Assembly: GCF_900102075.1 (NCBI RefSeq)
Contig: NZ_FNAV01000003.1
Location: 1-64,000, forward strand
Direction of reading: 5' to 3'
DNA length: 64,000 bases
Origin: Salipiger thiooxidans
GTDB lineage: Bacteria; Pseudomonadota; Alphaproteobacteria; Rhodobacterales; Rhodobacteraceae
Positions 2,205 to 9,787 of this stretch are shown here, in pieces. The notes under the pieces were generated by a model, which had not been told where the DNA came from, did not search any database, and saw only the letters and a program-made list of their open reading frames with translations. How positions within the stretch are numbered: position 1 is the stretch's first letter; every line of letters begins with the position of its first letter. Both the position numbers and the translations under genes were made by a program.

Positions 2205-3698
2205 TCACTTTGCGGTGTCGGGGTTGTAACTTGGCCGGATCTTGTTGAACGGGATCGAACTGCCGTCCGCCTGCACGATGCGCACATGGCGGCGGCGCAT
2301 CTGTCGGGGCTCGGAGACGCCGACAGAGTGTGCGATGGTCTCGACCTCCTTGATGATGCTCCTGGCGTAGTTGGCGACCTTCACGTACTTGTCCTCGACC
2401 ACCAGCCCCTTCTGCAGGCGCGGGTCATGGGTGGTGATGCCGGTGGGACAGGTGTTGCGGTTGCACTTGAGCGCCTGGATGCAGCCGAGCGAGAACATGA
2501 AACCGCGCGCCGAGGTGACGAAGTCGGCGCCGAGGCAGATCGCCCAGGCCACGTCGGCCGGGTTCACCAGCTTGCCGCTGGCGATGATGCGGATGCGGTC
2601 CTTGAGCCCGTAGCGGTCGCGCAGGTCGACGATCCGGGGCAGCGCCTCGCGGATCGGCATGCCGACAAGGTCGATGAGCGGCATGGGGGCCGCGCCGGTG
2701 CCGCCCTCGCCGCCGTCGATGGTGATGAAGTCGGGCGCGCTTTCGGGGCCGCGCTCGATGATCAGCTTGAACAGGTTCTCCCACTCGTCGGACGAGCCGA
2801 TCACCGTCTTGAAGCCCACAGGTTTGCCCGAGACCTCGCGGATGTGGCCGATCATGTCGAGCAGGTCGCCGAAATCGTCGATCTCGCGGTGGCGGTTGGG
2901 CGAGATGCCGGCCTGCCCGACCTTGAGGCCCCGGATCGCCGCGACCTCCTCGTTGACCTTCTCGCCGGGCAGGATGCCGCCCTTGCCGGGCTTGGCGCCC
3001 TGCGCGAGCTTGAGCTCGAACATCTTCACCTGCGGATCGGTGCCGACCTTCCGGAGCTTCTCGTCCGAGAGCCCGCCGGTCTCGTCACGCAGGCCGAACT
3101 TGGCGGTGCCGATCTGGAACACGAGATCGCAGTCGGCCACCTTGTGATAGGGCGAGAGCCCGCCCTCGCCGGTGTTGAGCCAGATCCCGGCCTTGGCGGC
3201 GCCGCGGCTCAGGGCCTCGACCGCGGGACGCGAGATCGCACCGTAGCTCATGCCCGAGATGTTGAAGATCGACCTGGCCACGTAGGGCACCCGCGCGTGC
3301 GGGCCGATCACCATGGGCTCGGTCGTGGCGAACTGGTCGTCGAGCGGCGGGAACACCGCGTTCACGAAGATCGGCGTGCCGGGGATGTTGAGGTTGCGGG
3401 TCGAGCCGAAGGCCACGGTGTTATCCTTGCCCTTGGTGGCGTGGTAGACCCACTCACGCTGCGCCCGGTTGAACGGCATCTCCTCGCGGTCCATGGCGAA
3501 GAAGTACTGCCGGAAGAACTCTCCCAGCTTGGTGAAGAGCCCGCGGAAGCGCCCGATCACCGGGTAGTTGCGCCGGATGGCATCGCCGGCCTGCGTCGAA
3601 TCGACGACATAAAGCGCCGCCGTCAGCATCACGGCCGCGCCGATCACCGCGACAAAGAGCAACGCGAGGACCTGCAAAGCATACATTGCGGCGCCCAT
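2205..3698 (-). CDS. FMN-binding glutamate synthase family protein
   Basis: This 497-residue protein has one or two N-terminal membrane helices (residues 5-28) followed by a GltB-type FMN/(4Fe-4S) synthase domain. Visible landmarks are GEGGLSPYHK, KPGKGGILPG, GGEGGTGAAP and the cysteine cluster CNRNTCPTGI that in GltB binds an iron-sulfur cluster. It lacks the glutaminase domain of true glutamate synthase large subunits. Members of this stand-alone family are common in Proteobacteria, but their substrate is not settled. It is separated from msrP by 70 bp on the same strand and may be co-transcribed. Confidence 0.85.
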   Translation of the reverse strand: MGAAMYALQVLALLFVAVIGAAVMLTAALYVVDSTQAGDAIRRNYPVIGRFRGLFTKLGEFFRQYFFAMDREEMPFNRAQREWVYHATKGKDNTVAFGSTRNLNIPGTPIFVNAVFPPLDDQFATTEPMVIGPHARVPYVARSIFNISGMSYGAISRPAVEALSRGAAKAGIWLNTGEGGLSPYHKVADCDLVFQIGTAKFGLRDETGGLSDEKLRKVGTDPQVKMFELKLAQGAKPGKGGILPGEKVNEEVAAIRGLKVGQAGISPNRHREIDDFGDLLDMIGHIREVSGKPVGFKTVIGSSDEWENLFKLIIERGPESAPDFITIDGGEGGTGAAPMPLIDLVGMPIREALPRIVDLRDRYGLKDRIRIIASGKLVNPADVAWAICLGADFVTSARGFMFSLGCIQALKCNRNTCPTGITTHDPRLQKGLVVEDKYVKVANYARSIIKEVETIAHSVGVSEPRQMRRRHVRIVQADGSSIPFNKIRPSYNPDTAK

Positions 3699-3802
3699 GA
3701 CTTTCCCTCACATATTCATTGATTTGCATGACTGGCGGAATCTTAGTACTTCGGTATCGTGACAATCGTTGCCGGGAACGGCAACCATTGGGGAGGAGAG
3801 AG

Positions 3803-4240
3803 ATGAAAAAACTGATTTCGGCGCTGGTCTTGGCCACGTCACCTGTCGCTGCGGAGGAGGCAGTGACCTATGACACGGACCAGAGCTTCGATGACGTGAT
3901 CTTCGGGCTCGAAAACGCGATCCTCGGGGCCGGGCTGGTCGTCGACCACATCAGCCACACCGGAGAGATGCTCGAGCGCACCCGGCAGGACGTCGGCTCG
4001 GACGTGGTGCTGTTCGATCATGCGGATGTCTACAGCTTCTGCTCGGCACAGCTGTCGCGCGAGGTGATGGAGGCGGATCCGATGAACGTGATGTTCTGCC
4101 CATACAACGTCTTCGTCATCGTCCGGCACGACACGCCCGACGTGACCACGATCGGCTTCCGGCCGTTCCCAGAGGGCGAGATGCAGACCATCCAGTCGCT
4201 GCTCGACGGTATCGTGCGCGACGCCATCGGGCTGGACTGA
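3803..4240 (+). CDS. DUF302 family protein, probably exported
   Basis: This 145-residue protein starts at ATG 3803 behind GGGAGGAGAGAG, a strong ribosome-binding site. The N-terminus (MKKLISALVLATSPVAAEE) looks like a short Sec signal peptide. The remainder shows the DUF302 pattern: a helix after TDQSFDDVIFGLENAI, the central VVLFDHADVYSFCSA and the MFCPYNVFVIV strand. DUF302 proteins have no established activity. It is divergent from the FMN-synthase-like gene, with about 100 bp between starts. Confidence 0.82.
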   Translation: MKKLISALVLATSPVAAEEAVTYDTDQSFDDVIFGLENAILGAGLVVDHISHTGEMLERTRQDVGSDVVLFDHADVYSFCSAQLSREVMEADPMNVMFCPYNVFVIVRHDTPDVTTIGFRPFPEGEMQTIQSLLDGIVRDAIGLD

Positions 4241-4285
4241 GCGCGGCCCTCGCCGGGGTCCTTTCGCCCGGGCGCCGCGCACATG

Positions 4286-4310
4286 AAAAGGCCCGCCGGT
4301 GGGGCGGGCC
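4286..4310 (-). terminator. Rho-independent terminator of clpB
   Basis: An 8-bp GC stem (GGCCCGCC at 4290-4297 with GGCGGGCC at 4303-4310) and 5-nt loop is followed on the minus strand by TTTT (4289-4286). It lies about 70 bp past the clpB stop, and the convergent DUF302 gene also ends here, so it may work in both directions. Confidence 0.75.
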
Positions 4311-4381
4311 TGTCGGTCTTGTGAGACGTCCTTGCGAGGGCGTCCTGTCGGGCCCCCGCTGGCGGGAGCCCGTGTCAGGCA

Positions 4382-6997
<2,616 letters not shown>

Positions 6998-7550: not shown

Positions 7551-8270
7551 ATGACCGACGACCGCCTGATCGTTGCCCTAGACGTGCCGAACGCGCTGGA
7601 GGCGCTGAAGCTCACCGACCAGATCGGCGATGCCGTGTCCTTCTACAAGATCGGCCTCGGGATGCTGACCGGCGGCGGTCTGGCGCTCGCCAACGAGCTC
7701 AAGCAGGAGCACGGCAAGCGCATCTTCCTCGACATGAAGCTCTTCGACATCGGTCAGACGGTCGAGAACGCGGTACGCGGGCTGGCGCAGTTCGACCTCG
7801 ACTTCCTCACGGTGCACGGTGACCCGCACGTGGTCCGCGCCGCCAAGGAAGGCGCCGCCGGCAAGGATCTCAAGATCCTCGCGGTGACTATCCTGACCTC
7901 GCTCGACCGCGCCGACCTCGATGCCAGCATGATCCAGACGGGCGAGGTGGCGGACCTGGTGGTCGAGCGTGCCGCCCGCGCCTTCGAGGCCGGGGCCGAC
8001 GGCATCATCGCCTCGCCGAACGAGGCCGCGCGCATCCGCGCCCTGCCCGAAGCCGAGGGCCGGCTCATCGTGACCCCCGGCGTGCGCCCCGCGGGCAGCG
8101 CCGACGACGACCAGAAGCGCATTGCGACGCCCGCCAACGCCGTCGCCGCCGGGGCCGACCACATCGTGGTGGGCCGTCCGGTCTGGCGCTCGGAAAGCCC
8201 GCGCGACGCGGCGCTCTCGATCCAGCGAGAGCTGGCCTCGCCGCAGGCTCAGCGCCCGAACCGGGGCTGA
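7551..8270 (+). CDS. pyrF: Orotidine 5'-phosphate decarboxylase
   Basis: This 239-residue enzyme catalyses OMP to UMP, the last step of de novo pyrimidine synthesis. The TIM-barrel signature is present: LIVALDV at the N-terminus, the catalytic D-x-K-x-x-D motif DMKLFD (Asp61, Lys63, Asp66), the loop TVHGDP and the phosphate-binding TPGVRP and [13 protein letters not shown] 7551 has an AGGAG site 7 bases upstream. Length is normal for the bacterial group I enzyme. Confidence 0.96.
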
Positions 8271-8292
8271 TCGCCGCTTGCGCGCGGGCCCC

Positions 8293-8308
8293 GTTCGGTC
8301 TACCGAAC
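8293..8308. promoter_or_regulatory. Perfect inverted repeat just upstream of the Trp leader peptide
   Basis: GTTCGGT-CT-ACCGAAC is a perfect 7-bp inverted repeat ending 5 bp before the leader ATG at 8313. A weak sigma-70 candidate (TTGCGC 8278-8283, 17-bp spacer, TACCGA 8301-8306) overlaps it, so it could be an operator. If transcription starts further upstream it could be a small hairpin before the leader. Confidence 0.4.
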
Positions 8309-8312
8309 CCGC

Positions 8313-8360
8313 ATGACCCGCGCGACGACCCATATCCGCTTCTGGTGGCAGCCCTCCTGA
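8313..8360 (+). CDS. Trp-rich leader peptide of the trpS attenuator
   Basis: A 15-codon open frame encodes [15 protein letters not shown], with tandem Trp codons (TGG TGG at 8343-8348) near its end. It lies 110 bp before a tryptophanyl-tRNA synthetase gene and directly before alternative RNA stems. No clear Shine-Dalgarno precedes it, so it could be translated from a leaderless or weakly initiated transcript, as I recall for trpL of rhizobia. Its role would be to sense charged tRNA-Trp by ribosome stalling. Confidence 0.8.
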
Positions 8361-8418
8361 CAGGGCGGCCAGCGCGATCATGCACGACACAGGGCCGCCG
8401 CATCCGGGCGGCCTTTTT
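8347..8418 (+). promoter_or_regulatory. Ribosome-mediated transcription attenuator controlling trpS
   Basis: Four segments can pair in mutually exclusive ways. Segment 1 is GGCAGCCC (8347-8354, inside the leader peptide), segment 2 GGGCGGCC (8363-8370), segment 3 GGCCGCC (8393-8399) and segment 4 GGCGGCC (8407-8413) followed by TTTTT (8414-8418). Pairing 1:2 (7 of 8) leaves 3:4 free to form a terminator. A ribosome stalled at the two Trp codons would cover segment 1, letting 2:3 form the antiterminator. This is the classic trp-leader logic placed on an aminoacyl-tRNA synthetase gene. Confidence 0.8.
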
Positions 8419-8470
8419 CATATCCCCTCCCCCGATGCGGCGTCCCGTTCCCCCACAACGGAGACCCAAC

Positions 8471-9472
8471 ATGTCCAGACCCGTCATCCTCACCGGCGAC
8501 CGCACCACCGGCCCGCTGCACATCGGCCATTACGCCGGTTCCCTGAAGAACCGGCTGGCGTTGCAGGACAGCCACCGGCAGTTCCTGCTGCTTGCCGACA
8601 CCCAGGCGCTGACCGACAACGCCGACGACATCGGCAAGGTGCGCCGCAACGTGCTTGAGGTGGCCTTCGACTATCTCGCGGTGGGCATCGACCCGGCGAA
8701 GACCACGATCTGCCTGCAATCGCATCTGCCCGCGCTGGCCGAACTGTCGATGCTCTATCTCAACTTCGTCACCGTCGCCCGGCTCGAGCGCAACCCGACC
8801 ATCAAGGACGAGATCCGCGCCCGCGGCTTCGGGCGCGACATCCCGGCGGGCTTCCTCTGCTACCCGGCCGCGCAGGCCGCCGACATCACCGCCTTCAAGG
8901 CCACCGTCGTGCCGGTGGGCGAGGATCAGGCGCCGCTGATCGAGCAATGCAACGAGATCGTCCGCCGCATCAACGCCAGCGCCGGGCGCGAGGTGCTGCC
9001 CGAGGCGCAGGCGCTGATCCCCGAGGCCGGCCGCCTCCCGGGCATCGACGGCAGGGCCAAGATGAGCAAGTCAGGCGGCAACGCCATCGCGCTCTCTGCC
9101 GGGCCGGACGAGATTCGCGCCGCCGTGCGCGCCATGTTCACCGACCCCGACCACCTGCGGATCGAGGATCCGGGCCGCATCGAGGGCAACGTGGTCTTCA
9201 CCTATCTCGACGCCTTCGACCCGGACCGCGAGGAGGTGGCGCGGCTCAAGGACCACTACAGGCGCGGCGGGCTCGGCGATTCCGTGGTGAAACGCCGGCT
9301 CGAGGAAATCCTGCAGGAACTTCTCGCCCCGATCCGCACCCGGCGGGCAGACTACGCCGCCGACCCGGGCGAGGTGCTGCGCATCGTCGCCGAGGGCACC
9401 GGCGCGGCGCGGGATCTCACCGATGCCACGAAACAGGAGGTGATGGAGGCGCTGGGGCTGTTCCGGCTCTGA
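8471..9472 (+). CDS. trpS: Tryptophanyl-tRNA synthetase, auxiliary-type clade
   Basis: This 333-residue class I synthetase charges tRNA-Trp. HIGH (residues 17-20) and KMSKS (197-201) are intact. The N-terminal pattern [15 protein letters not shown], with [18 protein letters not shown] and [15 protein letters not shown], resembles the clade of TrpRS that often occurs as a second, inhibitor-tolerant copy, rather than the usual alphaproteobacterial housekeeping enzyme (which I recall as GIQPSG-LGNY type). Whether another trpS exists cannot be seen in this window. The attenuator upstream implies induction when tRNA-Trp charging drops. ATG 8471 follows CGGAGACCCAAC. Confidence 0.93.
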
Positions 9473-9520
9473 CCCGCCCCCGGAACGACGGCCTGCCCCG
9501 AGGCGACCCGGGCGGGCCGC

Positions 9521-9787
9521 TCAGTCCTCGTTGATGTCGCGATCCCAGAGCTTGACCTGCCCCTTGCGGACACCGACGAGCTGGCGCAGCACGATCCACG
9601 CCACCAGCGACACCATCGCGAAGACCAGCAACAGCCACGGCCAGGCCACGGCGTAGCCCGCCAGCAGCCAGAGCCCGACCGCCGCCGCGCCCACCGCGAA
9701 GCCGAGGAAGATGAACCCCGGCGCCAGCATCTCGAGAACCAGAAGCAGCACCGCCGCCGCCATCCAGGCCCACCAGAGGTAGATCAT
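9521..9787 (-). CDS. Short NfeD family membrane protein
   Basis: This 88-residue protein has two or three hydrophobic segments (residues 5-30 and 36-70) and a short cytoplasmic tail. It resembles the truncated NfeD (YbbK/QmcB-type) proteins that accompany stomatin-like SPFH proteins and may modulate their membrane assemblies. Its ATG overlaps the stop of the upstream SPFH gene by four bases (ATGA), so translation is coupled. The OB-fold domain of long NfeD proteins is largely missing, which is normal for this subfamily. Confidence 0.8.
   Translation of the reverse strand: MIYLWWAWMAAAVLLLVLEMLAPGFIFLGFAVGAAAVGLWLLAGYAVAWPWLLLVFAMVSLVAWIVLRQLVGVRKGQVKLWDRDINED

Follow-up and report, generated by a model that had tools for sequence, protein, structure and literature searches.

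An auxiliary trpS gene in a 64,000-nucleotide stretch of the Salipiger thiooxidans genome (contig NZ_FNAV01000003.1, positions 1 to 64,000; hereafter the window) very probably stands under a ribosome-mediated attenuator, which would make its product, a tryptophanyl-tRNA synthetase (TrpRS) of the TrpRS-II type, inducible by poor charging of tRNA-Trp. The gene is preceded by a short open reading frame (ORF) with two adjacent Trp codons (WW leader) and by RNA segments with alternative pairings. This anatomy is widely conserved, the genome encodes a second, housekeeping TrpRS, the auxiliary enzyme belongs to a separate clade, and a fifth segment shows two alternative pairings which are both supported in related loci; ribosome stalling, termination and induction are predicted from this arrangement. 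A first-pass annotation of the sequence had already proposed the attenuator, but missed the fifth segment with its stretch complementary to the Shine-Dalgarno (SD) sequence, the fact that the leader ORF is probably leaderless, and the spread of the system beyond the alphaproteobacteria.

Rechecking the sequence returned the 15-codon leader with its tandem Trp codons and exactly the peptide given in that annotation. The four segments described there, with their 1:2, 2:3 and 3:4 pairings and a T5 terminator 53 bp before trpS, were likewise recovered by folding and by a terminator scan (Table 1). The 3:4 hairpin (8391-8399 with 8407-8415) reached -18.3 kcal/mol with a z score of -3.70, a value equalled by one of 200 shuffled sequences, and was also picked up by a consensus scan of positions 8150-9600 (two overlapping sites, 0.6 expected). 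The first two bases of the T run lie within the stem, and the 53 bp are counted from its last T to the trpS ATG. Taken alone, the 1:2 pairing (8351-8355 with 8362-8366; -8.2 kcal/mol, z -0.66) and the 2:3 pairing (8364-8370 with 8393-8399; -17.6 kcal/mol over the stretch, z -0.66) are no better than those of shuffled sequences, and all three pairings are mutually exclusive in the window, as an attenuator requires. Across 36 non-redundant loci, 2:3 complementarity exceeded that of shuffles at p<=0.05 in 25, and only 11 of 5000 permutations with partners swapped among loci were as low as the own-locus pairing. A total of 119 loci, representing 110 distinct upstream stretches, was available for folding of the leaders and was reduced to 118 by leaving out L036; a hairpin of <= -8 kcal/mol followed by a T run was found in 85 of them by a loose script, applied to rows not made non-redundant. 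Rfam at gathering score matched no family anywhere in the window, attenuator leaders and T-box included.

Tandem Trp codons are kept in nearly all related loci. Related loci were taken as the best 80 of 301, two of which (L042, L043) came without upstream DNA and were dropped. An ORF with tandem Trp codons is present within 300 nt before trpS in 77 of the remaining 78, and the same count holds for ATG starts only, compared with 14/1560 dinucleotide shuffles and 21/1260 windows of 300 nt taken elsewhere in these loci. The exception, L090 from Camelimonas, carries a leader with one Trp codon, as do L096 and L150 from Acetobacter (all judged by eye). On plasmid records, WW leaders occur in gammaproteobacteria (Klebsiella L151, Escherichia coli L152, Vibrio L160, Salinivibrio L161, and Salmonella L165), betaproteobacteria (Burkholderia L148 and Variovorax L149), and alphaproteobacteria (L146, L153, L159, and L166), as well as in Deinococcus (L154), Streptomyces (L162), Microbacterium (L163), and, with a GTG start, Rhodococcus (L164). 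Further WW leaders are found in other genomes of the phylum; as judged from the likeness of their leaders to those of named loci, L134-L143 look gammaproteobacterial and L132 and L133 betaproteobacterial. The first-pass annotation had noted that its proposal would fall if orthologous upstream regions lacked tandem Trp codons and stems; this objection does not apply, because both are kept in the relatives. In a further record (L011), titled as a metagenome-assembled genome of Cytophagaceae, the encoded protein does not differ from the window TrpRS and the 160 nt upstream differ at one position; the title or binning of this record is probably wrong.

No WW leader was found within 300 nt upstream of the housekeeping trpS of the same genome, or upstream of the housekeeping trpS of relatives (0/14, with 151-300 nt of upstream sequence). 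The trpE locus of the genome has no ATG-started WW leader on either strand; the only candidate there, a GTG-started WW ORF about 180 nt upstream, apparently lies inside the preceding gene by eye and was discarded. WW leaders are also absent from the trpS copies of Lactobacillus (L155), Staphylococcus (L157) with its near-copy L156, and Bacteroides (L158). For these copies, which lack the leader, a T-box was considered as the controlling element and rejected, as Rfam gave no match before trpS; its only matches in L154-L158 were M-box and tRNA, neither of them before trpS.

The auxiliary status of the gene, as proposed in the first-pass annotation, was supported by the presence of a separate housekeeping trpS. 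Three genes of the genome match PF00579, which are by sequence a TyrRS, the housekeeping TrpRS and the window TrpRS, and two match TIGR00233; the two TrpRS share 31% identity. The suggested placement in the clade of TrpRS-II also holds. The best match of the window enzyme in the PDB is TrpRS II of Deinococcus radiodurans (1yi8, 2a4m; 397 bits vs 221 for the next distinct enzyme), and a maximum-likelihood tree built from 76 proteins by a quick method sets the seven housekeeping rows apart at an SH-aLRT value of 99, with a warning of the program on long branches. The other side of the tree contains 69 rows gathered by likeness to the window enzyme, including three actinobacterial ones; as the D. 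radiodurans protein itself is not part of the tree, the deinococcal side is represented by the PDB search and the Deinococcus plasmid homologue.

The occurrence of the leader follows the number of TrpRS genes. Among 57 rows of known copy number, from which the degenerate TrpRS-II copies of genomes G130, G803 and G735 were excluded, a WW leader is present in 30 of 32 rows from genomes with two TrpRS and in 2 of 25 rows from genomes with TrpRS-II alone (Fisher p 1.5e-11, kinship ignored). The exceptions are L096 (with its single Trp codon) and L130 among the two-copy genomes and L118 and L129 among the sole-copy ones. Two TrpRS genes were found in all 16 genomes sampled from the 80 loci; this sample includes the single-Trp leader of L090, the genome of L067 (same places as G410, and so a repeat of a genome in the copy-number rows), and the genome of L088, whose second match carries a stop. 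Loci L120 and L122, each encoding the sole TrpRS of its genome and lacking a WW leader, come from two genomes outside the class, in the family group of L132 and L133. Both nest in a mostly alphaproteobacterial TrpRS-II group (support of 86 at the nearest fork, 97 in a set of 24 rows), and their position in the tree suggests that TrpRS-II turned from a spare into the sole TrpRS and that the switch was lost.

Segment 5 lies downstream of the terminator and abuts the anti-SD stretch; its partner combines the 3' part of segment 3 with the loop of the terminator. Among the 36 non-redundant loci, the 3:5 pairing has an own-locus mean of -22.3 kcal/mol, compared with -16.7 (sd 0.5) for swapped partners, and none of 5000 permutations was as low; in 20 of 36 loci the own segment-5 region ranks within the top tenth. 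The pairing of the segment-5 region with the SD sequence (5:SD) behaves similarly (-10.8 own vs -8.5 swapped; 0/5000). Within the 27 loci taken as alphaproteobacterial each of the two pairings still gave 0/5000, and so did the terminator loop alone. Measured against dinucleotide shuffles at p<=0.05, 3:5 stood out in 32, 5:SD in 13 and the loop alone in 11 of the 36 loci. Both controls were null: with the beginning of the coding region as partner of segment 3, 2002/5000 permutations were as low and 4/36 loci reached p<=0.05, and the SD sequence against region 2 gave 4928/5000. Matched changes include GTTCA/TGAAC (L123), AGCCAT/ATGGCT (L132), GTGG/CCAC (L097) and CTGG/CCAG (L134). Note that the swap test ignores kinship among the loci, and that the automatic choice of hairpins (short hairpins, small loops) may err in single loci.

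The following sequence of events would account for these features. Transcription would start at about the leader ATG, and the transcript would be translated at once. With charged Trp-tRNA present, the ribosome would reach the stop codon and cover segment 2, so that the 3:4 hairpin terminates transcription. When Trp-tRNA runs short, either by tryptophan starvation or by a block of the housekeeping TrpRS, the ribosome would stall at the Trp pair and cover segment 1, allowing 2:3 to form and transcription to run into trpS. The auxiliary TrpRS produced would then recharge tRNA-Trp.

It is possible, although somewhat short of probable, that segment 5 provides this scheme with another gate, one acting on translation, by pairing with the SD region or, alternatively, with segment 3 plus the terminator loop. 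When the pairings are forced, the mean unpaired fraction of the SD sequence is 0.37 with 3:5, 0.24 with 3:4 and 0.22 with 2:3, and the change from 3:4 to 3:5 raises SD exposure by >0.1 in 19 of 34 loci and lowers it in 3 (L118 and L129 were left out of these folds). Such a gate would also fit the loci that have no T run after the 3:4 hairpin. The leaders of L072, L084 and similar loci end in WWRSF, and the script found no good terminator in them; control may be mainly translational there. A simple translational attenuation at equilibrium was tried and rejected, since moving the ribosome from the Trp codons to the stop left mean SD exposure unchanged. This latter result would agree with segment 5 being instead an element of RNA stability or folding of the read-through mRNA, with no translational gate; we consider this rather unlikely, as the 5:SD complementarity is specific beyond swaps and, in about a third of the loci, beyond shuffles.

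Combining the translational gate with the comparative data leads to a broader, still speculative proposal of a five-segment attenuator, in which one leaderless Trp-codon ORF governs both termination and ribosome binding, leader and TrpRS-II move between lineages as a unit, and the switch disappears once TrpRS-II is the sole TrpRS. The dual control would arise because segment 5 pairs with the SD region as long as 3:4 is closed, but with segment 3 plus the terminator loop once 3:4 has opened. With this attenuator, the Streptomyces case discussed below would extend to a wider rule, with a spare TrpRS on a charging-sensitive switch in several bacterial groups; this is relevant to possible failures of TrpRS inhibitors against some bacteria. 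If segment 5 gates translation, a classical attenuator would have gained another output. The transition of TrpRS-II from spare to sole enzyme, accompanied by loss of the switch, would provide a natural test of what such switches serve.

Several observations weigh against the attenuator, the gate or the broader proposal. By the script, 33 of the 118 loci lack a good terminator, many of them of the Rhizobiales or gamma type, and the WW leader is absent from Acinetobacter baumannii L147 and from the two-copy genome of L130. Own-locus preference for 3:5 is missing in L154 (Deinococcus), L017, L076, L118 and L129 (ranks 0.67 to 0.97); L011, the near-copy of the window with one base different over 160 nt, ranks only at 0.31 among the swaps, and its 3:5 pairing brings no gain in SD exposure (0.23 vs 0.25). 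Forcing 2:3 alone leaves the SD sequence closed (0.22 vs 0.24), and 3:4 is the most stable forced state over the whole leader (mean -44.7 kcal/mol, compared with -42.0 for 2:3 and -41.5 for 3:5). In equilibrium folding with a stalled or released ribosome, SD exposure was 0.27 vs 0.28, with 19 of 118 loci going up and 20 down. Finally, only three to four independent lineage contrasts underlie the association with copy number, and the sign test (median p 0.5) is unable to reach 0.05; on average, 1.9 contrasts agree with the expected direction and 0.4 run opposite to it.

The leader ORF is probably leaderless, with the mRNA starting at about its ATG, because the promoter boxes place the start there and SD-like motifs are no commoner than at random. 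A TTG[ACT] box combined with a TA box upstream of the leader ATG was found in 56 of 79 non-redundant leaders but in only 16 of 1580 random positions, and the spacing in these 56 would put the transcript start at about the ATG. SD-like motifs precede the leader ATG in 7/79 cases (random positions, 161/1580), compared with 64/79 trpS starts. A general sigma-70 scan made no call at 8278-8306.

As to the role of the auxiliary enzyme, there is a nearly even chance that it serves mainly to protect the cell from natural inhibitors of TrpRS, for example indolmycin or chuangxinmycin: with the housekeeping enzyme blocked, charging would fall and a tolerant TrpRS-II would take over. His43 has been implicated in indolmycin sensitivity, with a change to Asn causing resistance, and D132 and Q147 are the other two binding residues named (PMC4899734). 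The position of His43 is occupied by Gln in 156/156 TrpRS-II rows and by His in the housekeeping enzyme of the same genome and, by eye, in 14/14 housekeeping enzymes of relatives. This determinant is therefore replaced, albeit by Gln and not by the published Asn. The Streptomyces precedent, the patchy distribution, the presence on plasmid records and the decayed copies in some genomes also fit a defense. On the other hand, D132 and Q147 are retained in 156/156 and 154/156 TrpRS-II rows, respectively, and Gln is equally present where TrpRS-II is the sole TrpRS; the residue should thus be regarded as a mark of the clade, with inhibitor tolerance being plausible.

A general reserve, induced on tryptophan starvation to supply more charging capacity or affinity and unconnected with inhibitors, is a possibility we regard as somewhat doubtful. 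The sensor would read charging whatever the cause of its decrease, and a possible counterpart, trpS2 of Salmonella Typhimurium (STM4508), appears alongside trp genes among those raised 2-fold in biofilms (PMC2805695). It would, however, leave unexplained why the leader-bearing second copies belong to the Gln-bearing clade and are not duplicates of housekeeping genes, with the proviso that loci were gathered by likeness to the window enzyme and other inducible TrpRS copies would escape. A rescue from toxins inactivating the housekeeping TrpRS, such as HipT kinases, appears improbable: HipT phosphorylates Ser197 in the KMSKS motif of TrpS and is suppressed by extra TrpS (PMC6581861), but TrpRS-II has kept the KMSKS motif. 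Least credible is a partnership with nitric oxide (NO) synthase in tryptophan nitration, which a review describes for D. radiodurans, the source of the closest solved structure, and which was rejected for the window genome because it encodes no NO synthase (PF02898), while two of the 14 control genomes, those of Bacillus subtilis and Deinobacterium chartae, were positive in the same search.

The leader shares several features with known systems. The order of segments 1-4 and the Trp pair near the leader end are those of the 14-codon E. coli trp leader, which differs in having its own ribosome-binding site and in controlling trpE and is not known to have a fifth segment. In Streptomyces coelicolor, the gene for an auxiliary antibiotic-resistant TrpRS is reportedly under ribosome-mediated transcriptional attenuation (a finding ascribed to Vecchione and Sello, 2010), and a review names indolmycin as the antibiotic. 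This combination of an auxiliary TrpRS with attenuation logic resembles the window, where induction is a prediction. A TrpRS encoded on a Streptomyces plasmid is 43% identical to the window enzyme and lies on the same side of the tree, with Gln at the place of His43 and the leader MHLSSCLSWWRSS. In Streptomyces lividans TK24, RNA-seq revealed trpL2-trpS, a leaderless one-Trp leader before a monocistronic trpS (PMC8079986); it resembles the window in the Trp-codon leader, the leaderless transcript and the hairpins between leader and gene, but its leader MMTRTCTQLWRAA has a single Trp codon, and a uridine-rich stretch was not detected there. Attenuators of trpS have been predicted in some Streptomyces, including a candidate classical one upstream of trpS2 of Streptomyces avermitilis (PMC1262725); in the excerpt of that study, the trpS predictions are confined to Actinobacteria, and for gammaproteobacterial synthetases pheST is named, with no proteobacterial trpS. 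The trpL-trpE(G) system of Sinorhizobium meliloti uses a Trp-codon leader on a transcript starting with the ATG and transcription attenuation (PMC7298713, PMC10117765). It matches the window in both features and in occurring in an alphaproteobacterium; unlike the window leader, it controls biosynthesis and not a synthetase, and the trpE of the window genome has no ATG-started WW leader. The Deinococcus plasmid homologue has a WW leader like the window enzyme, but D. radiodurans TrpRS II is reported together with the NO synthase missing here, and the plasmid leader lacks the own-locus 3:5 preference. A small coding sequence before trpS has been detected by ribosome profiling in Caulobacter crescentus (PMC4117421). 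While leader-controlled trpS genes are known from Streptomyces, no report of proteobacterial trpS attenuator leaders or of the fifth segment was found in the excerpts and open-access literature searched.

The features of the locus are compiled in Table 1. Upstream of the leader, the window contains an ORF which we take, by eye, to be pyrF.

Table 1. Features of the trpS leader region; positions are those of the window, and pairings are from RNA folding.
Feature	Position	Strand	Details
Putative promoter	8278-8306	+	TTGCGC 8278-8283, 17-nt spacer, TACCGA 8301-8306; transcription predicted to begin at the leader ATG or a few bases from it
Leader ORF	8313-8360	+	15 codons; ATG 8313; Trp codons 8343-8348; stop 8358-8360; no SD seen; probably leaderless
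Segment 1	8351-8355	+	GCCCT; partner 8362-8366
Segment 2	8362-8370	+	AGGGCGGCC; 8364-8370 partner of segment 3 (antiterminator)
Segment 3	8391-8399	+	AGGGCCGCC; 3' part plus loop (8396-8404) also partner of segment 5
Segment 4 and T5 run	8407-8418	+	GGCGGCCTT (8407-8415), T5 run 8414-8418; terminator with segment 3
Segment 5	8434-8442	+	GATGCGGCG; nine perfect pairs with 8396-8404 (CGCCGCATC)
Anti-SD stretch	8442-8449	+	GTCCCGTT; pairs with AACGGAGAC (8457-8465), one base bulged; fold of 8430-8474
trpS SD sequence	8460-8463	+	GGAG
Auxiliary trpS (TrpRS-II type)	8471-9472	+	333 aa; KMSKS present; Gln at His43 position

The TrpRS-II-like gene is distributed patchily: at the thresholds used, matches came from 7 of 198 genomes of the family (the window genome and one truncated copy included), 34/387 of the class and 72/397 of the phylum. 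Two matches in the class and the majority of those in the phylum have only 38-43% identity and may represent other TrpRS types. The copies L010, L144 and L145 (from G130, G803 and G735) are truncated, stop-bearing or split, and as deposited look like decaying accessory genes. In another genome of the same genus (L008), TrpRS-II is only 79% identical to that of the window and its leader is of another type (MENIIIIAMTWWLAS). A closer relative (82%) is found in another genus; this pattern suggests transfer or replacement.

The window enzyme matches 26 staphylococcal plasmid records at E<=1e-10, some of which represent ordinary trpS. On a mobilizable plasmid of Staphylococcus epidermidis (L157), the TrpRS-II gene (2501-3508), which has neither a WW leader nor an Rfam T-box, lies beside a gene for an efflux transporter of the MFS type (3657-5036). 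A staphylococcal-like pair of an AT-rich trpS and an mdeA-like gene is also found in a 9.3-kb record titled as a plasmid of Streptomyces griseorubiginosus (L156), which is probably a contaminant.

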